Source of the DNA: Psychromonas sp. B3M02
GTDB taxonomy: Bacteria; Pseudomonadota; Gammaproteobacteria; Enterobacterales; Psychromonadaceae
DNA: 59,598 nucleotides
Direction of reading: 5' to 3'
NCBI RefSeq assembly: GCF_003318165.1
Contig: NZ_QOCB01000126.1
Coordinates: 1 to 59,598, forward strand
Shown here: one piece after another, positions 4,869-20,464 of the stretch
Layout: each line of letters begins with the position of its first letter
How positions within the stretch are numbered: the first letter of the stretch is position 1
The notes under the pieces: generated by a model
Databases searched by the model: none
Seen by the model: only the letters and a program-made list of their open reading frames with translations
What the model was told of the DNA's origin: nothing
Translations under genes and position numbers: made by a program

Positions 4869-5540
4869 ATGATCACGATCCTAGACAACGTATTAGACAA
4901 AGAAACCTTAGTTAACATCCATAATACACTTACATTAGGCGAGTTTTATGCAGGTTCCGAAACAGCAGGTTGGGCAGCTAAATCAATGAAAACTAATCAG
5001 CAATGGCAAGCAACGCCTGAGCTAGAGTCAGAAGTCACTAACGCCCTAACCAGCCAATTAGTCACACATCCAGAATTTTCCACCAGCACCTATGCTAAAA
5101 AAATAGCGCCTTTTTTGATTAGCCAAAGCCAACATTCAGGTGGCTATGGGGATCATGTTGATGATGCGTTAATGGGTAGCGAAGCAATACTCAGATCCGA
5201 TTTATCCTGCACCCTATTCCTATCCAACCCAGATGATTATCAAGGCGGAGAATTAGTCTTTTCATTTGGTGCGCAGCAGCTCAGTTATAAACTACCGGCA
5301 GGTCACGCCATTATTTATCCTTCAACCTCATTACATCGAGTCAATCCAGTAACTGAAGGGGTAAGGCATGTAGGTATTACTTGGTTAGAGAGTTATATTC
5401 GTCATGCAGACCAACGTGAGGTACTACAAGATCTAGATAATGCCAGACGAGAAATCATGAAAGCACAAGGTAAAAGCAACGCCTTTGACAAAATCAGCAA
5501 ATCACACGCTAACCTATTACGCTTGTGGGCTGAAACCTAA
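4869..5540 (+). CDS. PKHD-type Fe(II)/2-oxoglutarate dioxygenase (PiuC/YbiX family)
   Basis: Member of the YbiX/PiuC family of non-haem iron, 2-oxoglutarate-dependent oxygenases that accompany catecholate siderophore receptors. The iron-binding HxD is in GGYGDHVDDALM (about residues 97-108). The distal His and the 2OG-binding Arg are in SLHRVNPVTEGVRHVGITW (about 159-177). The length of 223 aa is normal for the family. It is probably co-transcribed with the receptor and so indirectly Fur-controlled. The substrate is not known; modification of the siderophore or of intracellular iron release has been suggested for the family. Confidence 0.88.
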   Translation: MITILDNVLDKETLVNIHNTLTLGEFYAGSETAGWAAKSMKTNQQWQATPELESEVTNALTSQLVTHPEFSTSTYAKKIAPFLISQSQHSGGYGDHVDDALMGSEAILRSDLSCTLFLSNPDDYQGGELVFSFGAQQLSYKLPAGHAIIYPSTSLHRVNPVTEGVRHVGITWLESYIRHADQREVLQDLDNARREIMKAQGKSNAFDKISKSHANLLRLWAET

Positions 5541-6039
5541 TTTAGCTACAAAATCGAGGGAAGCTCACCCATTGAAATATTTTCATTGCATTTAACAAGT
5601 AAACTTGGCGATGTTCAATTTTTGTATCTCGCTTTCGCTCCAAAGTGCCTTACAAACCGCTCCTGTTAACATCTACAAAAAATAATCCAGTAAGAGAGAA
5701 AACAGAGTTATTTAGCTATTCGAGCCTGAAAATGATCCTAAATGAGAACAGTATATTTATCACCAAAATAATCATCTCTCTGTGATGAATTTTAGCTCGT
5801 GGTTTTAAGACGGGTATTGACTGCTTAGCTATTAGTTTTAAATGTTTAGTATTAGTTTAATGATAAAGTCGTTATTTGTCTAAGAAAAATGACTATTTAC
5901 CATAACAGTCATTAAACGCATAACTTGGAGGACACCCAATTAGTGGTGTTTTTGTGTCTAGTGGAAAATTTCTAGGGCACTTAGTGCCCCAAAGTGACTT
6001 AGGTTGATGGGCTTCTAGTCCTTTTAATTGACTTGTATA
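5541..6039. other. Gene-less stretch with short hairpins
   Basis: No plausible gene in either strand. It contains an imperfect inverted repeat GACAC...GTGTC (about 5930-5958) and a tight stem GGGCACT/AGTGCCC (5975-5989). It lies between piuC and the truncated Tn7-like end, so it may be debris of the older element or of another insertion, but no transposase fragment could be identified. Confidence 0.4.
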
Positions 6040-6174
6040 ATACTTCTCGTACCTTTAGATTTTACATCTTAATTTCAAGCCTAGGTTTATAAAACTTACC
6101 TTCTCCAATCCCATATTTGTTTTTAAGTACCTGTTGATAATCTTCTAAAGACGCTAGCTTTCGTCCACGTGACA
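6040..6174 (-). pseudogene. Truncated tnsA start of an older Tn7-like element
   Basis: Reading leftward from a GTG at 6174, about 40 residues match the N-terminus of the intact-start TnsA at 19145: SRGRKL-SL-DYQ--LKNKYGIG is shared. After YKP the match is interrupted by a stop and is lost near 6040. DNA identity to 19000-19145 is obvious. This is the 5' end of a second, related tnsA, truncated by deletion. Confidence 0.85.
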
Positions 6175-6227
6175 CAATTACTCTCTACTTTAAAATATAA
6201 GATAAGAATAAAAACGAACATTACTAC

Positions 6228-6252
6228 GGGCCAACTTTATTGTTACTGCACA
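6228..6252 (-). mobile_element. Right terminus of the older Tn7-like element
   Basis: Read on the minus strand from 6252 the DNA begins TGTGCAGTAACA and carries one CAATAAAGTTGGCCC box (6242-6228). It matches the right end at 19242, with two differences in the first 12 bases. It precedes the remnant tnsA start in the same geometry as in the complete element, and is separated from the new element by only 7 bp (GTATTAA). Confidence 0.8.
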
Positions 6253-6254
6253 GT

Positions 6255-6259
6255 ATTAA
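6255..6259. repeat. Target site duplication, left copy (ATTAA)
   Basis: ATTAA immediately outside the left terminus. An identical ATTAA lies immediately outside the right terminus at 19243-19247. A 5-bp duplication is the size produced by Tn7-type transposases. Confidence 0.85.
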
Positions 6260-6289
6260 TGTGAAGTGACAATAAAGTTGGCCCGTAAG
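6260..6289 (+). repeat. Transposon left terminal inverted repeat
   Basis: Begins TGTGAAGTGACA and includes one presumptive TnsB-binding box CAATAAAGTTGGCCC (6270-6284). It matches the right end at 29 of 30 positions. Only one box is seen because the tniQ stop codon lies 8 bp further in. Confidence 0.88.
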
Positions 6290-6296
6290 AAAGAGT

Positions 6297-7279
6297 TTAA
6301 TTGCATCTCATCGAGCAACGTTGGCAATCACTGCTTGCCAACATATAGGCTTCACCTGCTAAGTTTTTCTTATGAAATACACCATTATACATAATCACTT
6401 TTTTTGCTCGATTACTTAAAAAATCATCGAGAAGTTTGAAGCTATTATTAGCAAAATATTCTAATACTATTCTTTGGTATTTTGAGTTTTTTAATAGATA
6501 CCTAAGTAACGGGGTATTATCAATTTTATTTATTTCTTTATTGGAATAAATACTAATTTTCTGCAATAAAGAATTAGGAAAGTATTCAATAATACTGTCA
6601 AGCCATTCCAGAAAAGCATCTTTCAAGCATGGGGCTAAGTTAAGTATTGGCTCTACATTTAAGTATGAAGAGATACGTTCGCTTTTTTCATCATCTAATT
6701 CTACTTTTTCAAACTCATTAGGGTCTCTACCTGATAAAATTAGCATAATGTTCTTTATTGTTATTTTTCTTGCTTTGGAAGGGGCTTTAAACAAGGGAAT
6801 ATTATGCTGTTTACAAACATTTTTTACTTGCCACTCTCCCTTAAAAAAACCACACCATGCTTGAAGATTTGTTCTAAAATACAATCCTTGCAGTACCTTA
6901 TTTCTACCGAAATACCAGTAGGTAATCGTGCACCTTTGTACCTTGCTTTTGGGCGAATAAAAGCGTGTAACTCTTCAGTATATTGAACGGGTATACTAAA
7001 TATTGGCCCCCTGTCTAGAGCGATTCCAACATTCCTCATAAGGGCGATCAAATCTTCTTCTCTATACCTAGAAAAAATAACCTTGCTATTATCATCCTGA
7101 ACATCAAGAACTATGCTCCATTTTCCAGTAGAACTGATTAAGTTGGTAAAGTTACTAATCCCATGTACTAACTGAACTCTGAATATAAAACTATAAATAG
7201 ATTCACCTTCATGAAAATAAGGAACAACCATTTTTTTATTATACCTCTCGATAAACTTCTGAAACTGTATTAATGTCAA
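6297..7279 (-). pseudogene. tniQ: TniQ-family target-selection protein, split by a frameshift (possible programmed -1 shift)
   Basis: Two overlapping reading frames (7279-6824 and 6884-6297) together encode one protein of about 325 aa. The first half starts with the TniQ signature (VPYFHEGESIYSFIFRVQ) and has CKDCILEQIFKHGVVF. The second continues GEWQVKNVCKQHNIPLF, completing the TniQ zinc motif, and ends in a Cys-rich tail CQRCSMRC. The frames join at a run of seven T (plus strand A at 6843-6849). The zero frame reads GTT TTT TTA, so a T TTT TTA slippery heptamer would restore the protein by -1 frameshifting; otherwise it is a 1-nt deletion. TniQ proteins link target DNA to TnsC. The gene is isolated from tnsAB at the other end of the element. 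Confidence 0.8.
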
Positions 7280-7686
7280 ATACAGTCAGAATACTTTCCA
7301 TAAAAAATGTATAAATACTTATGAACACTGAACAGGCCGGATCATAACTCATCTAATACTTATTCAATTAAACTGCATACTGGTACTTTAGTAAATTGCT
7401 TCTTATGCTAGTCAATTACTAGCATTTTTTGTATTTGCTCAATTCATTTAGCAATCGACTTAACTTCTGAGCGATCTTTATCATTTAGCGGTATCGCCTG
7501 AATCATGGGCTCAAATAAAGAAAGTTATTCTTCTGTCCCCCCTCATATACAGTATACTTATCTTCAATATCAAGGCCTTTGACAAATTAACTTAACTGAT
7601 AAAATATTTATTCAGCCGTGTATGCACCAAGGTTCTATTGCACTATCACAAGTAGTGTCAAACGAAAGAGTCGTTTTCCCGAGTAT
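7280..7686. other. Intergenic stretch between tniQ and the CBASS genes
   Basis: About 400 bp without a convincing gene. On the minus strand a short frame near 7520-7440 (FEPMIQAIPLNDKDRSEV...) ends in a stop and could be the tail of a lost regulator-like gene; this is weak. No CRISPR repeats were seen although tniQ is adjacent. Confidence 0.35.
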
Positions 7687-8346
7687 CTATTGCTTTTGTA
7701 AAAATATAGTACCCGCAGTTTGCATATTTCTTTGCCAACCTCGGTTTGTCCAATACTTTCCAACAAGCTTAATGTCATTATCTTCAAACCTGACAAGTAA
7801 TCGAGCCGCCCCATCAAATTTTGCATCATCAGTTTCTTTGGGCTGATCGACAACTGATTCAAATATATAACTAAGATAAAAGACTCCATCACGAGGATCT
7901 TTTAAGATCTCACTCTGCATAACAGTACTTCTCTGGTATTTATCAACTGATACAAGGCGAATATCAAAACCAAAGAAAGTTGCTTTAATAACCATTTCCA
8001 CTTCTTTTTCGTATGGATTACCTTGCTCATCTTTATAAGTAGAAATGGTTTTACCTGTCCAAGAGCCATTTAAATCAGGGCATACCTTTTCATTCAATAG
8101 CACTCCAATGACTGGCATTTTCCAAAGCCATCGCCAAACGTAAACACCTAACAACCAAGTAATGCCCACAAAACAAATTAAGACAGGAATTAATAGGCTC
8201 GATATAACGCTAAAGCCATCTTCAGAAAAAAAGATTGTTACACCCGTCCAACCTTTTGTAGCCCAAATTAGCCCAGTGGTTACAATCGAGCATAATAACA
8301 ATACTAATATTTTTGCTAATCCAAACTTTGGTAGAACTTTCCACAT
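7687..8346 (-). CDS. cap15: Cap15-like CBASS effector (two TM helices plus beta-barrel)
   Basis: The N-terminus has two hydrophobic helices (about residues 11-30 and 47-72). It is followed by a beta-rich domain starting at PDLNGSWTGKT (91-101) and continuing with alternating strands to the end. This layout and the LNGSW entry motif are those of Cap15 (SMODS-associating 2TM beta-barrel) effectors, which oligomerise in the inner membrane on cyclic-nucleotide binding and disrupt it, killing infected cells. It starts 4 bp after the CD-NTase stop, giving a minimal CD-NTase/effector pair. No frame damage. Assignment rests on architecture and context. Confidence 0.85.
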   Translation of the reverse strand: MWKVLPKFGLAKILVLLLCSIVTTGLIWATKGWTGVTIFFSEDGFSVISSLLIPVLICFVGITWLLGVYVWRWLWKMPVIGVLLNEKVCPDLNGSWTGKTISTYKDEQGNPYEKEVEMVIKATFFGFDIRLVSVDKYQRSTVMQSEILKDPRDGVFYLSYIFESVVDQPKETDDAKFDGAARLLVRFEDNDIKLVGKYWTNRGWQRNMQTAGTIFLQKQ

Positions 8347-8350
8347 ATTT

Positions 8351-9622
8351 TTATCTCACTGGTCCATATCGTTTTTTAGGCGGATTGCGAAGTGGTCTTT
8401 GTTGCCGAAGAACATTAACTACTACAGTAGACACCCCTACAATTAAGCCCCCATTTAAAATCGTGCACTCCATGTAGTGCTTACCACGATACTCGCAGTT
8501 TTCGGTTACTGAATCAGAGATATCAAACCTTTGATTGTGTCCCAAATCATTTTTGTTATCTACTCTGAAGCTAAGTTTATCTCCTCGATAAACTGATACA
8601 TTACTAAGAACTTGCTCAGGCACTCCGCTTGATGTTTTAACACTGATTTGAGGTGGTGTTGTTATTGCTGGTAAGTTCTCACTACCAGCTTGTACTTTAA
8701 GCGAATTGAGAGGGGGTAATACATGTTCAAATTCAATTGACCACAGTTGGTGAGAAACGACAATTGACTCAGAGAGCGCAACTGCTTTCAAAACGCTTTG
8801 AAGCCGTGAGCAAGCACTTTTCAGTTCATCTAGTTCTTCGCCTTTAGCACTTATTAAATCATCACCATTAATAGGACTTAGGATTCTCCCACCAGTTACT
8901 ATGTAATTTGTTAGGCTATTTGATAGTTCCCATATAGCATCTTCTTCTGAAGCGTAACCAACATAGTTTCTAGCTATAAAAGTTGATATTGCAATAGACG
9001 GAAGTTTTATATTCTTAAGGCTAACCCAAGTTTTTATAGCTTTAATTACCCTACGTAATCGGGCCTTTTCAGTATCAGAAAAATGCTTTATCTGATTATC
9101 AAACCATGATTGTAATGCTTTAGGGTCGCTATCTATCCAACCATTATTTTCGGTAGCTAAGCGGCACTTTCCTATTTTCTCATCTATGTAATAAAGAGGA
9201 AGATCAATATGAAAATTATCAGGGAAACATATTCGTTCACAATTGAGTTTAGAGTCTTCGAGTTTAGCAGTGCTATGAGATTCGCAATAAGCCTGCAAAG
9301 CTTTATTCAGCAACCTTTTTGCATCAGAGGCATTAACACCTTGACCTTCAGCATCGGCAAAAATATAAAGCCCTACATCAACATCGAACTCATCACTACT
9401 ACGAACAGGGCGTATTACCGTATGGTTTTTGAATGATCCCTGAATCCAATAAGCGACCTTTACGCCTAGGTAACCTGTTAGTTGGCATTTCAAAAACTGT
9501 AACAGCTTATTTTTCTCTTGTCTCACAGCATCTACTTGCTCTGTTAGCAATGTATTTCTTGTTGCTAACGTCTCTTTATCACTGTCATTTGAATAGAACC
9601 CTTCACTAAAATCCGTTTTCAT
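8351..9622 (-). CDS. CBASS CD-NTase (cyclic oligonucleotide synthase) with C-terminal sensor-like domain
   Basis: Nucleotidyltransferase fold with GSF at 62-64, the metal-binding pair Asp80/Asp82 in SDEFDVDVGLYI, and the third acidic residue Asp140 in NFHIDLPLYY. An all-helical middle (about 190-300) follows, then a beta-rich C-terminal domain (about 320-410) resembling the adenylyl/guanylyl-cyclase-and-SMODS-associated sensor domain (AGS-C). After phage sensing, such enzymes make a cyclic di- or trinucleotide that activates the neighbouring effector. No Cap2/Cap3 genes are nearby, so this is a short, type I-like CBASS. The clade and product cannot be assigned by eye. GGGGAT precedes the ATG. 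Confidence 0.9.
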   Translation of the reverse strand: MKTDFSEGFYSNDSDKETLATRNTLLTEQVDAVRQEKNKLLQFLKCQLTGYLGVKVAYWIQGSFKNHTVIRPVRSSDEFDVDVGLYIFADAEGQGVNASDAKRLLNKALQAYCESHSTAKLEDSKLNCERICFPDNFHIDLPLYYIDEKIGKCRLATENNGWIDSDPKALQSWFDNQIKHFSDTEKARLRRVIKAIKTWVSLKNIKLPSIAISTFIARNYVGYASEEDAIWELSNSLTNYIVTGGRILSPINGDDLISAKGEELDELKSACSRLQSVLKAVALSESIVVSHQLWSIEFEHVLPPLNSLKVQAGSENLPAITTPPQISVKTSSGVPEQVLSNVSVYRGDKLSFRVDNKNDLGHNQRFDISDSVTENCEYRGKHYMECTILNGGLIVGVSTVVVNVLRQQRPLRNPPKKRYGPVR

Positions 9623-9664
9623 TTAAATCCCCATAAAATCACTTACACATTGTATTTGCTGTTT

Positions 9665-10939
9665 TTATCTCAACTCAATTTTTTGCGTGGTTGAGTTATA
9701 TCGATAATTAACAATCTGCCCGTTTACAATAAGCTCAATAGCCGTATTTATCTGTTCAATTGGCACACTGAACCATTCTCTCGGCTTGCACATGTTGCCT
9801 TGTAAATCAGCTATCTCAACCTCGATACAAACATCTTTAAATACGGTATGAATAAGGTTCTCAAACTTTTGTGTGTTCATGTTGTAGCATTCATATTCAG
9901 CAACAACATTTACGGGGGCCATTAAGTAAGTTGGTTCGTTTGCAGCATTCGCGATACGCTTGGCAACAGGTGTAGTTGCGTAGCCAATCTTGTATAAGTT
10001 AGAAATTGAATTAATTCGAGGATCTTCACTTTGGCTTGATAATATATAAATAAAACCTGCGGACTCATCATCTTCACCAACATTTTTAATATCAGAGAAG
10101 TGTTCGCCTTTTGGTGAAACCATTTTGCCATCAGCATATAGTGACTTAGCAATAGAGCGATAAAGCATGTTCGACTCTGTCCCATTTTCAAAAATACACC
10201 GAGTTCTCCCATCCTTTCTGAAACGCTTTCCATCCACAGTTTTTGCTTCACTGGTGATATCTATATGTTCGAGGTACATCAGCACTCCACTTAACACATA
10301 ATATTCACCAGCTTGAAGCTTTTCACCTTTATCATCAAACTCAATAATCTTACGTTGGCCACTATTTAGCTCTTGCTGAACCACAGGGAAAAGGTCTTTA
10401 TATTTATCAAAATCCTTACACGCCTTACGCCTTGCCACGAAATCGCTTTCAGCACGCTTATCTGTTTTCACATGTTTTATATTAAAAATGCTATCGTCAG
10501 ACTCACCTAGTAAGCCAAAATCATCATCAGCGAATATGTCTTCAACTGAATTAATTTCTTTTACCACTGGCTTTGGTTCAGCTTTCGGTTTTGCTTTATA
10601 TTCTGCCGCAGGCTCTGCCACTTCATGCGTTAGTGGTAACAAGTTAAATTCATCAAAGTCAACTAGCGCATGGCACTGGGTATCATTACCTCTAATAGAA
10701 TCTAACCGTTTAAATAACATTAGCTCACTAATGTTTGCCATATTGTTTTCGGGCAAACGACCATTCGCTTTATAGAAGTCATTTATCTCCTGAAACTTAG
10801 CGACTAAGTGTTCATCAGCCGTTGGCGCTTTAGATTTAACTTTAACCGCTGTAAGCCCTAATTCGTCATCGTCATTAATGAAGCTTAACCAGTCGTTCAT
10901 CTCCATCGACTTGAATTTTTGCCATTCTTCATTTTTCAT
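9665..10939 (-). CDS. GIY-YIG (T5orf172-like) nuclease, third gene of the restriction-like operon
   Basis: The C-terminal third carries a GIY-YIG nuclease of the T5orf172 type: FIYIL at about 296-300 and LYKIGYA at about 315-321, followed by a conserved Arg and Glu region (AKRIANAAN, QKFENLIH). The N-terminal 290 residues are charged and have no recognised domain; an Ala/Lys/Pro linker is at about 108-126. I place the start at the ATG that overlaps the helicase stop as TAATG (10939), giving 424 aa; an upstream in-frame ATG at 10987 would overlap the helicase by 49 bp. It probably supplies the cleavage activity for the adjacent methyltransferase and helicase. Confidence 0.8.
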   Translation of the reverse strand: MKNEEWQKFKSMEMNDWLSFINDDDELGLTAVKVKSKAPTADEHLVAKFQEINDFYKANGRLPENNMANISELMLFKRLDSIRGNDTQCHALVDFDEFNLLPLTHEVAEPAAEYKAKPKAEPKPVVKEINSVEDIFADDDFGLLGESDDSIFNIKHVKTDKRAESDFVARRKACKDFDKYKDLFPVVQQELNSGQRKIIEFDDKGEKLQAGEYYVLSGVLMYLEHIDITSEAKTVDGKRFRKDGRTRCIFENGTESNMLYRSIAKSLYADGKMVSPKGEHFSDIKNVGEDDESAGFIYILSSQSEDPRINSISNLYKIGYATTPVAKRIANAANEPTYLMAPVNVVAEYECYNMNTQKFENLIHTVFKDVCIEVEIADLQGNMCKPREWFSVPIEQINTAIELIVNGQIVNYRYNSTTQKIELR

Positions 10940-12867
10940 TACGCTTGCATCCTTTTGCGCTTTTCTTGTTTGATGTAAATTAAGCACTCAGCCAAACGCT
11001 TTTCGGTAAAGTCTGACGCGTTTAAGTCAGGTTCTCGGCCATTTTCATGAACAAACTGTTTAACTTTAGGCCATAACAATTTAGCTTCATCAAAATCCAT
11101 TTGAATACGGGTGGTTTGAATCGACTCTTGAATAAGCTTTAGTACGTCCGTTGTTACTGATTTTGATAGTATCTCAAAGGCTTTTTGGAACGGATTAATT
11201 TGATCGATTAGATCAATACTCAATTCATCAATGTTGATAAATTTATCAGCTAAGCGAACAAACTTTTTCCCACCTTGTTCACTTACTTCCGCTGTACTTA
11301 CCGCTGAATCAACAACTACTTGCTGACGAACTTCTTCAACTTCATCTTCAGTTAAATCAGGATATTTACGTTGAATTATTTTAGGGATAAGTATTTTATT
11401 AACGACTTCTGGGTCAACTTTACCTGCTGAAGCAGCAATTACTTTATCATCTTGCAAAATAGCCGCTTTTAAATCAGCTAAGTCAGATTCAATAATGTCT
11501 TTAGTACGCTTTGTGCTTGGCTCTTTAAAGCCACCAATCTTCATTGTACCCGGTGGTGCTGGTTCAAAATCATCATCTTTTTTGGCTTTAAACTTAAAGT
11601 TTGGTGCCAATACTTGCTCCATAAGTAATGAACAAGTGATCGCTTTAAGCATGTTATTCACGGCAATCGTTACTTGGTCATTTTCAGCATCAGGCTGGGC
11701 TATTAAATTAGTGAATTGCGCATGTATTTTGTTTGAACTATCACGAGTACAGCGACCAATAATTTGAATTATTTCAGTTAACGAGCTTCTATAGCCCACG
11801 GTCAATGCATGTTCACAGTACTCCCAGTCAAAACCTTCTTTAGCCATACCTAATGCGATGATCACATCCATATCATCTACATTTTTTATATTACGTAGAT
11901 AATTTTGAATAATGTCGCGATCATTTTCTTCAACTAAGTCGGCTACTTTAATTACTGTACCGTCAGGGCGAGTAACAGGAATAACCCCAGTATCTGGGTC
12001 ACGTTTACCGGCTTCACCTAATACTTCTAAAATGGCATCTACTTCATCGTACTTTTCTTTGGTTGATTCACCTGAATTAACGTTAGGAATATGAATAATG
12101 GTTTTCTTGCCGTAGTTTTCTTCTGAATTGAGTACTTCATGAATAACGTCGGTGTATCTACCTTGATAAAAGTGATAACCAATACCGAGTGATTTAAGGT
12201 AGTTATAACCATTAAGTTGTTCGTAATAGTTAAATGATACTTTATCGAATTGTGCTTCAAGCTCAGGTGTTAATACAGGAACACTATCACCACGGAAGTA
12301 TGAACCTGTCATAGCAACAATATGTGCATTGCTATTTTCCATAATAGAGCGTAGAACATCACCCAATACGTTTTCACCATCAGCAGAAACGTGGTGAAAT
12401 TCATCAATAGCAATTAGGCAATCATTAAAATCTGTGTCTTCGATTTCTTGGAAAGCAAAACGCAGCGTAGCATGAGTACAAATAAGCACTTTATCATCAC
12501 CTGCCATAAAACGCTTAAACGCTTTGGTTTTGCTGGTTTCACCACCGGGCGTACAGAGGTTATTGTTGTTATCAACTTCCCAATCACAAAAAAAACCATA
12601 TTTGCTTAATTCAGTCGTATCAAACGATCCACCAATAGATCGTTCAGGTACTGCAACAATAGCCTTTCTAACGCCTTGATTATGCAGTTTGTCTAACGCT
12701 AAAAACATTAATGCACGAGACTTACCTGATGCAGGAGGCGCTTTTAATAGTAAGTATTGGCTGTTTCTGCCTTCAAATGCACGAGACTGCATGGCTCGCA
12801 TACCCATATCATTAGTATTTGAGCTAGCACCACTTTGGGCATATTTGAATTCCATTAAATTACGCAT
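10939..12867 (-). CDS. Superfamily 2 DEAD/DEAH-type helicase, restriction-like operon
   Basis: Helicase motifs in order: Walker A PPASGKS (44-50), motif II DEFH (155-158), motif III TGS (187-189), motif V MAKEGFDW (341-348) and motif VI QIIGRCTRD (368-376). A C-terminal helical extension of about 250 aa follows. It overlaps the methyltransferase stop by 8 bp (ATGCGTAA) and joins the nuclease gene through TAATG, so the three genes are translationally coupled. It is likely an ATP-driven translocase as in restriction enzymes; its biochemical role here is inferred. Confidence 0.88.
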   Translation of the reverse strand: MRNLMEFKYAQSGASSNTNDMGMRAMQSRAFEGRNSQYLLLKAPPASGKSRALMFLALDKLHNQGVRKAIVAVPERSIGGSFDTTELSKYGFFCDWEVDNNNNLCTPGGETSKTKAFKRFMAGDDKVLICTHATLRFAFQEIEDTDFNDCLIAIDEFHHVSADGENVLGDVLRSIMENSNAHIVAMTGSYFRGDSVPVLTPELEAQFDKVSFNYYEQLNGYNYLKSLGIGYHFYQGRYTDVIHEVLNSEENYGKKTIIHIPNVNSGESTKEKYDEVDAILEVLGEAGKRDPDTGVIPVTRPDGTVIKVADLVEENDRDIIQNYLRNIKNVDDMDVIIALGMAKEGFDWEYCEHALTVGYRSSLTEIIQIIGRCTRDSSNKIHAQFTNLIAQPDAENDQVTIAVNNMLKAITCSLLMEQVLAPNFKFKAKKDDDFEPAPPGTMKIGGFKEPSTKRTKDIIESDLADLKAAILQDDKVIAASAGKVDPEVVNKILIPKIIQRKYPDLTEDEVEEVRQQVVVDSAVSTAEVSEQGGKKFVRLADKFINIDELSIDLIDQINPFQKAFEILSKSVTTDVLKLIQESIQTTRIQMDFDEAKLLWPKVKQFVHENGREPDLNASDFTEKRLAECLIYIKQEKRKRMQA

Positions 12868-15598
12868 TTTGACCTCCTGTCATCTTGTTATATAAGTTAA
12901 ATAGTAGATTTAGTTTTTCTTCTTCAGTATCTAGTAGCTCTGCTGTATAAAGTTGTTCAACTGTTTTGTCTAATATCTCATGCGCTTTCTTTAATGAGAT
13001 AGGCATAGAGTCCGAATATAATCTAGAGATACTCATATCGCTATAAGCCTCTCTTTCAAGTAAAACATTAAGTGCCGCTGAGCGAACTTGATTTTTTTGT
13101 TCCTCTGTAACCTCTGGAACAGGGAAAGTGTTGTAACATATTTTAGAAGAGTACCTAATCCCATTTCCGAATTTCCCTGATACAGCCGTAGTCCAAATCA
13201 AATGAATCTTTGAAGAGAGTAAACCCATAAAAAATAAGTCTTCAGAAGAAATTACGTTCAATAAATCACTAGCTAAATCTTCTTTCTTTAATAGTCCAAC
13301 TGGTAAGTAATCTTTTACTGATGAAGAGACTTTTGGAATGATCAAAAAGTTGGTACTAGGGAAATTTTCGACATGAAAATTTCTTGGTGTGCCAGCAAGC
13401 TTTATAGTTGGTTTACTGGTGCTTTTAAGTCTAAACGCCTTAACTTTTTCAATAACTCTAGCTACTTGGGGAAGGTTTGATATTTCTTCATCACTGATTT
13501 TTTGCAGACTAAGGCACCACCTGTATACACCTGAATTAAATTCTTGTGCTCCAAACCATTTTTTAAAAAACGGCTTCGCTTTTGGTTCAATTTCAAGAAA
13601 GCTATTCTTCTCATTTTCAGTAAATAAAAATCCCCCCCCATCTACAGGTTTATTGCCGATCCCCATTTTGGGTAGTGACGACAAAGGAGTACTTCTAGGT
13701 TTTACAGCAGTTATATTTGTACTGGTTAAATACGGGTTTATATAAGCAACAGAATTCCAATAATTATCTACTAATATTTTTTTATTCGAACTTTTATCTT
13801 TAGAGCCTAAACCAACAATTACACAATATACACCAGCTTGATTTTTCGCATTATTTGTCCATTTAAAGGCAGGGATAGCAAGAATTATATTTACATTTTT
13901 TCTTAATATACCATCCCACATAAAACTTACCTGCTCTCCCTGACAAATTGAACTAGTGGATACAAAAGCAAATTTTTGAGTGCCCGAAATATAATTAGCT
14001 CCTTTTAAAAACCAACCAGCAATATAATCTAGGCTACCAATATTGAAACTGTTTTCATTGAAAAACGTGTGTTTCATATCCTCTTTTTGCTCTGGAGATT
14101 GTTTTCTCGCACCTATGTAAGGTGGATTACCAATTATATGAATTTCTTCTCCATTATTTGGGCAAACTGAAAACCAATTTAACCTTAAAGCATTGCCTGC
14201 CACAATTTGACCACTGCTTTGTAGAGGTAATGTTGGTTCACACTCCCCAAACTCAGCTTTAAACTCAACATTCATTTGATGCTCAGCTAACCAAAGAGAA
14301 AGTATGGCAACTTCATGAGCAAAATCATCTAGCTCAATGCCATAGAATTGAGAAAGTTTGATACGTGAAAAAGATGAATCTAAACCAACATCACCAAATA
14401 GGTCGTCTTGGTTATCATTTTGATCTAGTTCTTGTAATCGCTTGATGATTTCCATTTCAAGCTTACGGAGTTCTTTAAAAGCAATAATTAAAAAGTTGCC
14501 TGAGCCACAAGCAGGATCAAATATTATAATTTCAGCAATGCGATCATGTAACTTGCGTAAACGGCTTGGTTTTAACTTAGCATCAATATTGTCTTCAATA
14601 TTTTCAAATTCAGCATAAAGCTCATCTAAAAATAGCGGCTCAATTACCTTCATGATGTTGGTCACTGAAGTATAGTGCATGCCCATACCGCCACGCTGGT
14701 CAGGGTGAACCACCGCTTGGATCATCGAACCAAAAATATCAGGATTAATATCCGACCAATCTAGTTCACTGCCACACTCAATCAGCATTTTGCGTGATTT
14801 AGTTGAAAACCTTGGCGAGGCTATGGTGTTTGCAAATAAGCCACCATTTACATATTCAAAGTTTGCTAGATAGTCAGGTAAATCACCACGGTTATCTTTG
14901 CTTGTATTCAACACTTCAAATAAACGATTTAAGTAACCATCAACATCAGAGCCATCAACTTTAGTATGTGATTCAAGTTCAGCACTGAATTGGTTCTGTT
15001 TGAATATACCCGTATCTTCCGCAAAAAAGCAGAAGAGTAAACGGGTTAAAAATACGTTTAAGTTATGAAGTGCGTTAGTGTCGTCTTTGTTTTCTTCACT
15101 AAAATTATCAGCTTTGATCAAGTCGAACAACTTAGCCATTTTTTCTGCCGCTTTAACATCAGCAGGGTTTTCACCTTTGTAAACCGCTTTTTCCATTCCA
15201 GCCCAAGGCAAGAAGAAGTCAAAATGCTTACCTAGCTCGGTAAATTCAATATCTAAGGTATCGTGGGTACGGGTATCTAGGGCAACTAACTGATTAAAGT
15301 CAGTAGCGATAACAAAACGAATTTTATCACGAGCAACTGACGGCTCTTTTTTCATGTTATCAATATCCAATAACACACAATCATTTTGGCTTTGCTTAAA
15401 GTATATATGGCGCTTAGCTCTAACTTCGCCTTCAACTTTAGCTAAGTTACGTTCACCTGATTTAATACGACCTATGGTTGTTTTACGGTGACCATATGCC
15501 ACCATTAGCTGGTATATAAACTCGTTCTGGTCAACTTTGCTAGAAACTAAGTCGGATACTAAATTTTTAACAGCTTCTTCCATTTGGGAAATATTCAT
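12860..15598 (-). CDS. MmeI/YeeA-like adenine-specific DNA methyltransferase
   Basis: A 912-aa class I SAM-dependent N6-adenine methyltransferase. The SAM-binding motif FDPACGSGNF is at 360-369 and the catalytic NPPY at 491-494. The preceding GMHYTSVTNIMKVIEPLF block (306-323) and the downstream target-recognition-like region (about 600-830) are characteristic of MmeI/YeeA proteins. I do not see a PD-(D/E)xK nuclease motif in the N-terminal 200 residues, unlike single-chain MmeI, so cleavage is presumably done by the GIY-YIG gene downstream. First gene of the five-gene minus-strand cargo run; likely gives host DNA self-marking. Confidence 0.88.
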   Translation of the reverse strand: MNISQMEEAVKNLVSDLVSSKVDQNEFIYQLMVAYGHRKTTIGRIKSGERNLAKVEGEVRAKRHIYFKQSQNDCVLLDIDNMKKEPSVARDKIRFVIATDFNQLVALDTRTHDTLDIEFTELGKHFDFFLPWAGMEKAVYKGENPADVKAAEKMAKLFDLIKADNFSEENKDDTNALHNLNVFLTRLLFCFFAEDTGIFKQNQFSAELESHTKVDGSDVDGYLNRLFEVLNTSKDNRGDLPDYLANFEYVNGGLFANTIASPRFSTKSRKMLIECGSELDWSDINPDIFGSMIQAVVHPDQRGGMGMHYTSVTNIMKVIEPLFLDELYAEFENIEDNIDAKLKPSRLRKLHDRIAEIIIFDPACGSGNFLIIAFKELRKLEMEIIKRLQELDQNDNQDDLFGDVGLDSSFSRIKLSQFYGIELDDFAHEVAILSLWLAEHQMNVEFKAEFGECEPTLPLQSSGQIVAGNALRLNWFSVCPNNGEEIHIIGNPPYIGARKQSPEQKEDMKHTFFNENSFNIGSLDYIAGWFLKGANYISGTQKFAFVSTSSICQGEQVSFMWDGILRKNVNIILAIPAFKWTNNAKNQAGVYCVIVGLGSKDKSSNKKILVDNYWNSVAYINPYLTSTNITAVKPRSTPLSSLPKMGIGNKPVDGGGFLFTENEKNSFLEIEPKAKPFFKKWFGAQEFNSGVYRWCLSLQKISDEEISNLPQVARVIEKVKAFRLKSTSKPTIKLAGTPRNFHVENFPSTNFLIIPKVSSSVKDYLPVGLLKKEDLASDLLNVISSEDLFFMGLLSSKIHLIWTTAVSGKFGNGIRYSSKICYNTFPVPEVTEEQKNQVRSAALNVLLEREAYSDMSISRLYSDSMPISLKKAHEILDKTVEQLYTAELLDTEEEKLNLLFNLYNKMTGGQNA

Positions 15599-15830
15599 TT
15601 ATTCATCCATCATTCTTATTTTTTTACTAACAAGCGCAAGTGCACATTCTTTGGAAACCCTACAAAGGACTAGCTTAATTTAAGGTTAATTAAGTAACAT
15701 AGTATCAAAATATCATAAGATGGATGTTTGTTTCGTATCACTAATGCAATAAAAACAATGCATTATTAGCAGCAGTTTAAATGATCTGTAATTACCGTCA
15801 TGGTGAGTGGTAATTTATCCTTATATTTAA
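15599..15830 (-). promoter_or_regulatory. Promoter region of the defence operon
   Basis: About 230 bp without a gene, between the tnsD remnant and the methyltransferase start. It is AT-rich and must contain the main minus-strand promoter of the cargo. I see no repeat or clear operator. Confidence 0.4.
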
Positions 15831-16434
15831 TCAACCATGTCCCCCTAAAGCTTTATCAAGCTCAGTTCGTGATATTGGATATAACTGACGATCTAGTAAC
15901 TTGGTCGTGACATTTACAAGCTCAATATCACGTTCATGCCAATCGACACTATTTTTATAAACCACTGCAGTTGGCTTTGGTAAATTCTTTTCAAGCCATT
16001 TAGGATCATGCAGATACAGCCAAAAAATGCATCACTACACTCTATTTTTATGTGCTTGCGTAAAGCTTCAGAAAAAGTCATTCTAAAACGCATTATTTTT
16101 GTTTTATAACGACGACACATGGACTCCTCTTTACAACGCTGTCGTCTCTGAACTAGGCCTAATGTGGTTGATATCACCATCTCTACACTCCCAGCCGATA
16201 CATTATATTTTTTAGCAATAGCATAACGATGAAAGCCTTTATGGGCCATTTTTGCAATTTTTGCCTTCAACTCCTCAGTCAATACTCTTGGTTTCAGATT
16301 AACTGGTATTTTTTTTCTTAAAGCGAGATGTTTTATATAACAGCGGCTTTTGCCCGTTAATCGACTTACCTCTATCATTGAATTCCCTTGTCGTAATAGC
16401 TCACAGCAATGCTTTTCTATGGTATTTTTATCCT
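15831..16434 (-). pseudogene. tnsD: C-terminal fragment of tnsD, fused in frame to tnsB and frameshifted
   Basis: From about residue 316 of the tnsB-containing frame the protein changes into TnsD-type sequence: a helix-turn-helix stretch (EVSRLTGKSRCYIKHLA), a second one (GFHRYAIAKKYNVSAGSV), then RRYKTK. The TnsD tail continues in another frame: HDPKWLEKNLPKP, VDWHERDIELV, ending TELDKALGGHG with a stop at 15831. The switch is at plus-strand A6 (16022-16027), where one added base restores AFFWLYLHDPKW. The N-terminal part of TnsD and all of tnsC are missing. The fusion boundary is approximate. Confidence 0.72.
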
Positions 16435-18332
16435 CTTTTATTAATTCCAAAGATTCTACTTTGTTATTATTAATAGTAGATTCGAGCCAATCTTTTATTA
16501 AGTCTGACTCACACATCGCCTTATCACTAAACATACGGCTTCGGGGTAATAGGTTGCAACGAACAAAGCCTTTATCTTTATCTAGTCTAACGTATATATA
16601 GTTCGATGTGTTCTCATCTATTCTTGCTTCTAAACGCCACTGCCCAGCTGTTCTTGCTATCGAACATAATTCTCGCTCTTCGACCTCTGCACAGGAATAA
16701 TAAAGTCCATTAAATTGTATTCCACTTCGAGTTACACTTACCTCAGCAGGTGGAAGCAGCCGAGCTATTACATCATTTGAAGTAGCTGATTGCAGTTCAT
16801 GTCTATGCTTAGCTATATGAATTTTCCAATAATTTAATGGGGTTGGCGACAAATCATTTTCAACCATCAAAGGACTAGAAAATGCTAAGTCATCAAAAAG
16901 CGTACGATTATGTTCTCGCACAGCTTTTATTATTTCTATAGAGACCTCCCTTAAAGTATAGATTGCATCTTTTCTCGGATCTCTGCTTCCACGAACGACA
17001 TTCCCACCTTTTGTAGTGCCTAACAATTCATGGAGTACTTTATCATTTAAAATATCAAACCGTTTTTCTACAACCCCTTTGCAATCAGGTCTATAAGGAG
17101 GGGTAAAAGATAACTTAGTCATTGGTATAAGAGCTTTTTTAGGTTGTATTCCAATCATTTCACCATTATCGCATACAAGCTCTTTAGGGATATGAGCACA
17201 TGGCCATTCTGAATCATCAATATCTATACCAAATTCTTTACAGTAATTTGCCTTTGGCAGAAAGCAATTAACTAAAGCCTGTCTGGCTGCACGCCAAGAA
17301 GCATAATACAAAGATACATGCATACCGACGATCATTCGACTTGCTCTATCCACTACAATATAAATTGTTGGCCTCCCCAAGACGTGCTGAGAGCCTAAAG
17401 CAGATACAATGTGGACATCAGCTACAGTCGCATCAATTTCGTAATGGGTCCCTGGTAAAAAGCTATCTTGTGCGACGCTACCTGACGCTACCTAATAAGG
17501 CTCTTTGATTCCTAAGATGATAATTCTCTGTCGTCCTTCGTTTAATAACCTCCTCTTGAGTAAAGATCTTTTTACTCCAATATCTAAATTGTTTCATTGT
17601 TGGCACCAATGGAGGTCTGTTACACGCACCTGCAAACCGAATCTCTTCTGAGTAACTGTCTGCTAGCATTTTTTTATATGTATTTGCCAGTGATAAAACA
17701 GATTCTCTCAGGTAGTACTTTTTGATAGCTGTTTTAAATATGTTTTTGTCAATATCTGAAACAATAAATTTAGTAGCTCTTTTTATTGCTAAAGTTCGAA
17801 TCTTCTTTGGAGCTCCCAACGGCTTATTGGTAGGGGTCCGTTCTTTTCCTATAGCTCCACTTTGTAAAAATGCCGGCATAAGTGCCATTTCATCCTGACC
17901 ATAGCGCCAATATAGTGTTAATAGCCTAGCTAATGACTTACGATCAACTCCAACTTTCCTGGCATATTCAGAAAGTTGTAAAACTCGCTTCTTTGTAGCG
18001 AAATCGAAAAGAAAAGATCTGTCAACAACAAGGTCTTTAACTAAATTATAGTTTTTGTCTCGTCGTTTAATATATTGCTCAGGAATATCTTCCTCAACAA
18101 GGAGTAGATAGTTCGGCATTTCAAAACTAGCTTTAATTGCACTCTTATTTTCTATTTGCTCGATAAAAAGTGTAAGGGAAACAGCTACTGGTCGAACTGT
18201 CCTTGCTGGATTGTGGAGTGGAAATAGAATAACAGACTCTACGCCATGAATAATATCTAGAACTCTATACAAACCATCATCTAATACATCAAAGTCTTTA
18301 AATTCCCATATGCTGTTTTTAGAAATTTCCAC
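16435..18332 (-). pseudogene. tnsB: tnsB DDE transposase, disrupted by a 10-bp tandem duplication
   Basis: Tn7-type TnsB. The N-terminal DNA-binding part (from GTG at 18332, AAGGAG nine bases upstream; an in-frame ATG lies at 18359) includes the typical PTMKQFRYWSKK. The rve catalytic core follows: EIDATVADVHIVS (first Asp), VCDNGEM (second Asp), KGVVEKRFD (Glu), then the Mu-type C-terminal barrel to LLPRSRMF. The frame is broken at GACGCTACCT repeated at 17474-17493; removing one copy restores GSVAQDSFLPGTHYEIDAT. The C-terminus runs into a tnsD fragment. All three catalytic acids remain, so the gene died by the duplication and the deletion. Confidence 0.88.
17474..17493. repeat. 10-bp tandem duplication that breaks tnsB
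   Basis: GACGCTACCT occurs twice back to back. The duplication shifts the frame directly upstream of the first catalytic Asp of TnsB. Deleting one unit gives an uninterrupted TnsB-like reading frame across 17500-17340. Confidence 0.92.
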
Positions 18333-19145
18333 TTGCAATATCTCCTTGAGCCTCAGCAATACGTTTCACATCTAATATCCCTGATTCAGGTATATTGAAT
18401 GATAGATCTACATCGATGTACTTATCTGCGATTAAATAACGAATTATTAATAACGCATCACTATTAGAAACAATATTCTGTGAGATTAATCTATTACAAA
18501 GCTCTTCAACCGAATTCATACCTAATTTCATAGAAGAAAGTACATAGTCTATTTGGTAATGGGAGAAAACAGGTTCACTCTTACGGAAAGGACTGGTTGC
18601 CCAATCTATATTTTTACTTTGTGCTCTTGTTAATTCGTTACCTGTGAAATAACTAAACTTTACACCGAGTAGCTCCCAACAAACCCTTTCTATATCAATT
18701 TTTCCAACACACGTAATTTCTCAGATTCACTTTCTGGCTTTACTGAGACTGCATGAAATGAATTACCTAAAGGGCTTGTGATAGTTAACAACTGATCTGT
18801 TGTAATAATAATTGGCTCTTTAGTTTTTGGGTGAGCTGGGTGCTTAATGCCTAATGCGCTGGCAACCTTTTGAGTATAATTAAGAGGGAAAATAGGAAAC
18901 TGCTCTCTGATATCAACAACATTATCCATAAATTCTGCTAAATAGAAAAACTCACTTTCTATAGAGGACATCATGTGATGTCCTCGCTGAGACTTCCTGC
19001 CTTGGATAATCGATCTAGTGCCGTTAGATTTTACATCTTGAACTCTCAGCCAAGGTTTATAATCACTACCTTGACCAATCCCATATTTATTTTTGAGTGC
19101 TCGCTGATAATCTTGTAAAGACTCTAACTTTCGCCCACGTGACAT
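18319..19145 (-). pseudogene. tnsA: tnsA endonuclease gene with a frameshift
   Basis: TnsA makes the 5'-strand cuts at Tn7 ends. The start MSRGRKL and residues to about 148 are open, with the catalytic-type residues visible: Glu in SSIESEFFYLAEF, Asp in ITTDQLLTI, and Lys in FHAVSVKPE. The frame then stops at 18690. Adding one base in the T5 run at 18699-18703 restores EKIDIERVCWELLGVKF and leads into the open C-terminal part (KLGMNSVEELCNRLI...) ending at 18319. The C-terminus overlaps the GTG start of tnsB. No -1 slippery heptamer fits, so I treat it as a loss-of-function mutation. Confidence 0.85.
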
Positions 19146-19197
19146 AATTATTCTCTACCTTACAACCTAAGATAAGAGTAGTAACAAACACCACTGT

Positions 19198-19242
19198 GGG
19201 CCAACTTTATTGCTTACGGGCCAACTTTATTGTCACTACACA
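19198..19242 (-). repeat. Transposon right end with two TnsB-type boxes
   Basis: Read on the minus strand it begins TGTGTAGTGA, followed by two CAATAAAGTTGGCCC boxes (19232-19218 and 19212-19198) with a 20-bp period. Overlapping or close-packed boxes at the right end are typical of Tn7-family elements. Confidence 0.88.
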
Positions 19243-19247
19243 ATTAA
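19243..19247. repeat. Target site duplication, right copy (ATTAA)
   Basis: Identical to 6255-6259. It includes the TAA stop codon of baiN (19246-19244 on the minus strand), so the insertion leaves baiN intact. Confidence 0.85.
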
Positions 19248-20464
19248 ACTGCTTGCCCTGCGGCCCAACCACAGCTCCAACACCATGCGAAATTAAACCC
19301 GCCTAGCCAACCGGTGACATCCATGGCTTCGCCGACAAAGTACAACCCTTTTACAGATTTACATTCCATGGTTTTAGATGAAATAACGTCGGTATCAACA
19401 CCGCCTAAGGTCACTTCGGCTGTGCGGTAACCTTCTGTGCCATTAATTAAGGGTTGCCATTGATGGAACAGTGCCACTACTTGTGCCAACTCTTTTTCAG
19501 TAAACTGCTTTAATGGGCGGCTTCCAATCTCTGCAATAGCTAATAAGCACTCTACGACACGCTTTGGTAAATGCTGCGATAACACGGTTTTTAACGCTAA
19601 TTCAGGTCTATCTTGCTGAGTTTGAGTCAATAATAAACTAAGATCTTCACTGGGTAAGAGATCGATTGAGATAGTATCGCCCGCTTGCCAATAGTTAGAT
19701 ATTTGTAAAATCACAGGGCCACTTAAGCCGCGGTGAGTAAACAATAACGCTTCACTAAAACTCATTGGACGATCTTTTTTCGTCGCATTTTTTTTAATTG
19801 CCGTGGCCGTTGCAGGTAAACTAATACCTGATAATTCAGTTAGTTTCTCTTTTTGTGTCGGTTGTAAAGTGAAAGGCACTAAGCCAGCACGGGTTGGTTT
19901 CACAGGTAAGTTATATTTTTCAGCCAGTTGATAAGCAAAAGGTGTCGCGCCCAATTTAGGCAGTGACAGCCCACCTGTTGCAACCACTAATGATTGGCAT
20001 TCAACATCACCTTGCGAAGTTTGCACTCTAAAATGGTCATCGCCTAGTTGTTGATGTGCGATTACTTCACATTGCGTTTTGATAGTCACACCTGCTGCCT
20101 GTGCTTCATCAAGGAGCATTTTTACTATCTGTTTGGCGCTATCATCACAAAACAATTGTCCATGGTCACGCTCATGCCAGGCAATATTATGTTTATCCAC
20201 CAACGCGATAAAGTCCCATTGTGTATAACGGCTCAGTGCTGATTTTACAAAATGTGGATTACTACATAGGAAGTTGCTTGGTTCTACGTATAAGTTAGTA
20301 AAGTTACAACGCCCACCGCCACTCATAATGATCTTTTGACCAATACGTTTAGCATGCTCGATAACCAGTACTTTTCGTCCACGTTTACCAGCCTCAATGG
20401 CACACATTAAACCAGATGCACCAGCACCAATTACCACTACGTCAAAACCCATCACATCAATCAC
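19244..20464 (-). CDS. YhiN/BaiN-family FAD-dependent oxidoreductase
   Basis: HI0933/YhiN-like flavoprotein. The N-terminal dinucleotide-binding fold is VVVIGAGASGLMCAIEAGKRG. The family signature IGQKIIMSGGGRCNFTN follows, and the C-terminal FAD site is VKGLYFVGEAMDVTGWLGG. At 406 aa it is full length. The start may be 20464 or the second Met at 20452 (MGFDVVVIGAG); no strong ribosome site distinguishes them. The reaction is uncertain for most members. Its 3' end is the attachment point of the Tn7-like element, and the stop codon lies within the target duplication. Confidence 0.88.
   Translation of the reverse strand: MIDVMGFDVVVIGAGASGLMCAIEAGKRGRKVLVIEHAKRIGQKIIMSGGGRCNFTNLYVEPSNFLCSNPHFVKSALSRYTQWDFIALVDKHNIAWHERDHGQLFCDDSAKQIVKMLLDEAQAAGVTIKTQCEVIAHQQLGDDHFRVQTSQGDVECQSLVVATGGLSLPKLGATPFAYQLAEKYNLPVKPTRAGLVPFTLQPTQKEKLTELSGISLPATATAIKKNATKKDRPMSFSEALLFTHRGLSGPVILQISNYWQAGDTISIDLLPSEDLSLLLTQTQQDRPELALKTVLSQHLPKRVVECLLAIAEIGSRPLKQFTEKELAQVVALFHQWQPLINGTEGYRTAEVTLGGVDTDVISSKTMECKSVKGLYFVGEAMDVTGWLGGFNFAWCWSCGWAAGQAV

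Follow-up and report, generated by a model that had tools for sequence, protein, structure and literature searches.

An older and a younger Tn7-like insertion next to yhiN

Contig NZ_QOCB01000126.1 of Psychromonas sp. B3M02 (59,598 nucleotides), which corresponds to the entire contig C45 and was analysed at full length as the window, carries a Tn7-like element directly beside the baiN/yhiN gene. We consider it highly probable that a yhiN-targeting Tn7-like transposon inserted here next to the end of an older related element and later lost its self-mobility, with its cargo genes remaining open. On the basis of its ends, a target-site duplication and its gene content, the element was placed on the minus strand at positions 6260-19242 (12,983 bp). 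Its right end, on the tnsA side, faces the intact yhiN gene (HI0933-like; 19244-20464, minus strand).

The element is flanked by two copies of ATTAA (6255-6259 and 19243-19247), and the yhiN stop codon (19244-19246) falls within the right one. The terminal inverted repeats lie at 6260-6289 (plus strand) and 19213-19242 (minus strand), and both termini open with TGTG. When the left repeat was compared with the reverse complement of the right one, 29 of 30 positions were identical, while the best match among 200 shuffles of both end regions that preserved mononucleotide composition still had 9 mismatches in 30. Past 30 bases the inverted match weakens, with 7 mismatches in 40 bases and 15 in 50. 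The initial annotation had described exactly such termini, with one mismatch over 30 bp and ATTAA flanks, and had placed the insertion at the baiN stop; both statements were borne out.

Close to the termini we found a 15-bp end repeat, a probable TnsB binding site. It occurs once at the left end (6270-6284) and twice at the right end (19218-19232 and 19198-19212), where the copies are 20 bp apart as in related elements. The third right-end repeat of these relatives is not visible at the right end of the element. Allowing up to three mismatches, four copies of the repeat were found in the window, all of them exact and all accounted for, although such a count alone does not exceed chance expectation, being reached in 15 of 100 shuffles. 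The element thus has the TGT...ACA ends, multiple end repeats and 5-bp duplication of Tn7-type elements, with a single repeat at its left end.

Decay of the transposition genes

Read from the right end, the minus strand first encodes tnsA (18319-19145) in two frames (18690-19145 and 18319-18531) and then tnsB (16435-18359), also in two frames with a frameshift near 17482 and with its C-terminal end lost. The TnsA N-domain of Pfam matched the open reading frame (ORF) 18690-19145 with 33 bits (cut-off 26.5), and Mu-transpos_C matched ORF 15914-17380 with 24.4 bits (cut-off 21.7). A phmmer comparison of the latter ORF with TnsB of Tn7 (7pik) gave E=1.3e-34, a distant match. These matches confirm tnsA and tnsB remnants in Tn7 order at the right end, as had been annotated. 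For the N-terminal TnsB piece (17478-18359), Pfam gave nothing up to E=1, but this piece shares 60% identity with the N-terminal region of the open 712-aa TnsB of genome G231. In the second frame, the stretches that we take to hold the catalytic residues of TnsB can be read.

ORF 15914-17380 is a fusion, in which residues 1 to about 319 correspond to TnsB and the remainder to the C-terminus of TnsD. The in-frame junction lies at approximately 16415-16440 (minus strand), where the TnsB and TnsD protein matches overlap by about 90 bp. The tnsD remnant (15790-16438, minus strand) is spread over three frames and covers TnsD residues ~293-511. In genomes G231, G288, G137 and G188, about 2.6 kb holding tnsC and the N-terminal portion of tnsD separates the counterparts of the fused pieces. 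Since tnsC sits between the matching pieces in these relatives, its absence here is due to a deletion, which removed all of tnsC and over half of tnsD. The description of the element as a complete transposon therefore holds for its ends, but not for its genes: tnsA, tnsB and a second tniQ-like gene (see below) are frameshifted, and tnsC is missing, as is more than half of tnsD. No TnsE turned up in the window, in which no search was aimed at this protein.

It is conceivable, though unlikely, that the element is still mobilisable and that its ends are moved by TnsABCD that an intact relative in the same cell supplies. The intactness of both termini over 30 bp would suit such movement. However, only one left and two right end repeats are visible, compared to two and three in the related locus L082 of genome G288. 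Moreover, the older remnant described below is the only further TnsA or TnsB match of this kind found in the genome of this strain; another of its contigs has two TniQ genes. We therefore favour a loss of mobility. The element also illustrates how transposition genes decay while cargo genes remain open, the kind of element being unchanged.

A fixed distance from conserved yhiN codons

The association with yhiN was followed in a sample of 295 genomes of the order, 36 of which match the TnsA piece of the window. In all eight of the strongest other genomes (G231, G288, G072, G250, G188, G137, G029 and G240), tnsA lies 129-146 bp from yhiN; in G072 and G240 it contains stops. Among the 27 genomes with weaker TnsA matches, 22 were checked and five were left out because yhiN was absent or not printed. 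None of the 22 had tnsA within 10 kb of yhiN on the same contig, the nearest being G006 at 10.5 kb.

The insertion point could be measured in seven loci. It lies 57, 58, 58, 59, 60, 61 and 62 bp past the codons for GG(F/Y)NF in G231, the window, G188, G137, G288, G250 and the Escherichia coli locus L153, respectively. The G188 terminus was assigned manually; no placement was obtained for G029, and G072 and G240 were left out. All seven loci thus combine the yhiN 3′ end with a fixed spacing, as expected for the site of Tn6230-type elements. For this order and for E. coli alike, the distances supply a concrete, testable targeting rule: an insertion point 57-62 bp beyond the conserved codons of yhiN.

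A probe made of yhiN plus the right end was covered to at least 80% at a single place in 645 of 5426 E. coli genomes, in a search that joined pieces up to about 700 bp apart. Among the 60 records listed, 55 were single abutting matches and five had 72 to 569 extra bases, so the spacing rule has exceptions. For instance, the right ends in L154 and L155 are located 72 and 290 bp beyond the yhiN stop and not at it. One of the five records is K-12 J53, a strain for which PMC8417528 reports movement of a plasmid-borne element between yhiN and yhiM. Table 1 of PMC11406308 lists yhiN as the site of Tn6230 and calls the molecular details of targeting unknown. An insertion of Tn6230 between yhiN and yhiM is mentioned in PMC10121019, and PMC12671221 reports that Vibrio cidicii carries a Tn7-like element adjacent to yhiN.

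Other sequences were also seen at this position. In five of 22 same-genus relatives (L004, L005, L010, L014 and L022), TGTATTCG followed by ACGAAGA repeats comes directly after the yhiN stop. These repeats differ from those of the window element, and because a different end sequence directly follows the stop, other elements appear to use the yhiN site as well. A stretch adjoining yhiN in genome G019 (L146, ~13285-19065) is bounded by ACGAAGA-type repeats and holds a viperin gene (pVip) and a gene matching an ankyrin model; no transposase was found among three of its ORFs scanned with PADLOC. In G006 (L087, 14438-19454), the Hachiman genes HamA and HamB adjoin yhiN, and a tnsABC-tniQ set follows some 10 kb deeper into the locus.

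The right end of an older element

Outward from the left ATTAA, two bases (GT) separate the element from a second terminus, which runs from 6252 inward to 6033 (minus strand). We identify this stretch as the remaining right end of a related, older element. It contains one end repeat (6228-6242), compared to two at the younger right end, and the start of tnsA in two frames (6068-6175 and 6033-6068). The 15-bp repeat is identical to that of the younger element, and the two right ends share 80% DNA identity. Summed from measured distances, the older terminus was 60 bp from the yhiN codons before the younger insertion, within the 57-62 bp range. With the younger terminus at 58 bp, both ends fit one spacing rule, the younger being nearer to yhiN. 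A left end of the older element was not found in the window, whose only four end-repeat copies are all assigned elsewhere.

The older end might instead be a copy of the right end of the element itself, made by recombination or by a failed transposition. The shared repeat, the same tnsA start and the adjoining position would agree with this. However, an identity of only 80% with the younger right end and a terminus 60 bp from the yhiN codons, as for a separate insertion, make such an origin very improbable.

Because the older right end is present at 6033-6252, joining 6259 to 19248 gives a site that was already occupied and not an unused attachment site. The initial annotation had offered this junction as the pre-insertion sequence, which is correct for the state before the younger insertion but not for an empty site. 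It had also proposed a comparison with a related genome lacking the element. In genome G018, whose yhiN is 96% identical, homology to the window ends at 5540 (the piuC stop) and resumes at 19245 (the yhiN stop), which places the insertions between piuC and yhiN and fits the proposal in this respect. G018 has its own piuC-yhiN spacer of 614 bp, unrelated to the window. The predicted junction itself was present in none of the 22 same-genus relatives; ATTAA at the yhiN stop was found in four of them (L007, L013, L019 and L020). Parts of the interval between piuC and the older end (5541-6032) match many places in several same-genus genomes and resemble a dispersed repeat.

Tn7 inhibits a second insertion nearby, as stated in PMC11406308, and a site used twice, with stacked ends, bears on how such target immunity lapses in Tn7-like elements. 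Our guess is that loss of a repeat from the older end lifted the immunity. A broader model, in which our confidence is evenly divided, is that the yhiN end acts as a reusable landing place, since the recognised codons are kept in the gene. Newcomers would insert nearest to yhiN at the same spacing and push older elements outward, remnants with a single repeat would stop blocking, and a layered defence island would result, here with two layers.

In the history that we propose, TnsABC would have been guided by TnsD, which would read the conserved 3′ codons of yhiN. The element inserted 58 bp past these codons with duplication of ATTAA, landing 2 bp nearer to yhiN than the older element. Later, frameshifts arose in three genes (tnsA, tnsB and the tniQ-like gene at the left end), and the ~2.6-kb deletion fused tnsB to the tnsD C-terminus, which would have ended self-mobility. 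The predicted defence cargo has stayed open.

In genome G009, a 234-bp sequence (L058, 11390-11623, contig C13) has end repeats of the window family at both ends and CACAC on each side, on a contig other than that of yhiN. It looks like a miniature non-autonomous relative.

A second tniQ-like gene

Near the left end we found a second, divergent tniQ-like gene (6297-7279, minus strand) in two frames (6824-7279 and 6297-6884). Its N-terminal piece matches genes of G288 (E=2.7e-11), G188 (1.8e-8), the plasmid element L143 of E. coli (1.3e-4) and G231 (2.9e-4), and a profile comparison of this gene group with TnsD proteins gave a probability of 69% (E=4.3e-5). The tniQ-like label was given tentatively, because of these two results. 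The other piece had no Pfam match, and neither had the G288 and G188 counterparts at E up to 0.01. Tandem tniQ/tnsD genes were counted at 1,048 loci in PMC10293859. The two further TniQ genes in the same Psychromonas genome (contig C22, 8155-10928) are above the Pfam cut-off and lie on opposite strands, and may belong to another Tn7-like element or part of one.

In type I-F3 elements, a tniQ-like gene is located near the left end. A clustered regularly interspaced short palindromic repeats (CRISPR)-guided element that has lost its Cas genes can nevertheless be dismissed: ten ORFs scanned (6824-7279 lay outside the scan) gave no Cascade or Cas12k match and only weak Cas3 matches to the helicase, no direct repeat of at least 20 bp within 200 bp occurs anywhere in the element, so that neither effector genes nor an array was found, and the fixed yhiN spacing is a sufficient explanation for the insertion site.

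Relationship to known elements

In a TnsB tree of 23 rows, the window groups with G231 and G288 (97/98) inside a nine-row clade (100/100), whose other members are two plasmid elements and the yhiN-site relatives included in the tree, six in all with G231 and G288. The plasmid hit H12 is annotated as TnsB of Tn7, but its neighbours suggest a Tn5053-type element, and it therefore served as outgroup only; the long branches of H12 and G006 may join falsely. By its site and TnsB clade, we assign the element to the yhiN-targeting (Tn6230-type) group of Tn7-like transposons. The yhiN 3′ end is the site in both cases (PMC11406308, Table 1; PMC10121019). The kind of element is thus already known, and the window holds a new, decayed example.

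Its relative L082 shares a TnsB that is 80% identical, TGTG ends, a 5-bp duplication (CGCTT) and a TniQ-like gene near the left end. L082 differs in that tnsABCD are open and the cargo is Gabija (GajA, GajB). The E. coli plasmid element L143, called Tn6230-type from its site and group and not from the reference record, encodes tnsA, tnsB, tnsC, tniQ and a 308-aa TniQ-like gene, the latter also having a counterpart in the window. Its right-end repeats occupy the same places as in the yhiN-site relatives, and its TnsB is 46-49% identical to that of the window. Unlike L143, the window lacks tnsC and over half of tnsD, and it carries cargo between tnsD and the second tniQ-like gene, which are adjacent in L143. 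With Tn7 the element shares TnsA, TnsB and TnsD (here as remnants), insertion past the 3′ end of a conserved gene and a 5-bp duplication, whereas Tn7 uses glmS as its site.

Several observations weigh against the proposed reading. No TnsC ATPase was matched anywhere in the window, and the left end shows a single end repeat, compared to two in L082. Matches of TnsA and TnsB to profile models had been anticipated; this held for the TnsA N-domain and Mu-transpos_C but not for the TnsA C-domain, which scored below its cut-off on 18319-18531 (20.9 vs 23.4 bits), nor for the N-terminal TnsB piece. The N-terminal piece of the left-end gene reached 17.3 bits on TniQ of Pfam (cut-off 27). The left flank of the window was beside yhiN in none of the 22 same-genus relatives in which a true empty site was sought, and the group assignment rests on a comparison that left out the reference Tn6230 record. 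Finally, the assembly is a draft, so part of the frameshifts could be errors, but the deletion could not be.

Cargo genes

All cargo ORFs are open. A DncV-like CD-NTase (8351-9622, minus strand) and a Cap15-like effector (7687-8346, minus strand) scored above their Pfam cut-offs and were labelled by PADLOC as a cyclase and a 2TM effector; the Cap15-like protein had no match among solved structures. Together they are predicted to form a cyclic-oligonucleotide-based antiphage signalling system (CBASS), which PMC8649781 reports as known cargo of Tn7-like elements.

The remaining cargo consists of an MmeI-like, DnmA-like DNA methyltransferase (12860-15598), a DEAD/ResIII helicase (10939-12867) and a T5orf172/GIY-YIG-type protein (9665-10987), all on the minus strand, the latter two being YeeB-like and YeeC-like by position and domains. 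The methyltransferase aligns with MmeI over residues 89-908 (phmmer), is also matched by MmeI_N of Pfam and was labelled type IIG by PADLOC. The nuclease pattern D-x8-13-ExK is absent from its first 130 residues and from those of 12 of 15 homologues; in the others it occurs near residue 108 (two) or at 66 (L104). Judged by domains and gene order, the trio corresponds to the dnmA-yeeB-yeeC cassette of Bacillus subtilis and Vibrio crassostreae, which has these three gene types in an identical arrangement. According to PMC9973331, DnmA of B. subtilis has no nuclease motif and the gene order is conserved across species. That paper describes no phage protection by the B. subtilis cluster, and relates that deletions of the cassette in V. 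crassostreae raised sensitivity to some phages. We had considered the cassette as an undescribed defence system, which is ruled out by this earlier description, the missing nuclease motif included.

In 24 loci bearing the helicase, the GIY-YIG protein was matched in all and the methyltransferase in 20; two of the four misses (L094 and L111) are on contigs starting within 600 bases of the helicase. The ratio of nonsynonymous to synonymous substitution rates (dN/dS) was 0.016-0.050 in the five comparisons, out of six, of the helicase and GIY-YIG genes that were computable, one having a dS near 3; dS was not computable in two of ten comparisons overall. The helicase and GIY-YIG protein of Photobacterium SKA34 share 97% identity with those of the window, whereas its methyltransferase is 38% identical over residues 469-912, in the C-terminal half. 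This contrast suggests that the methyltransferase, as the specificity gene, was exchanged within the cassette.

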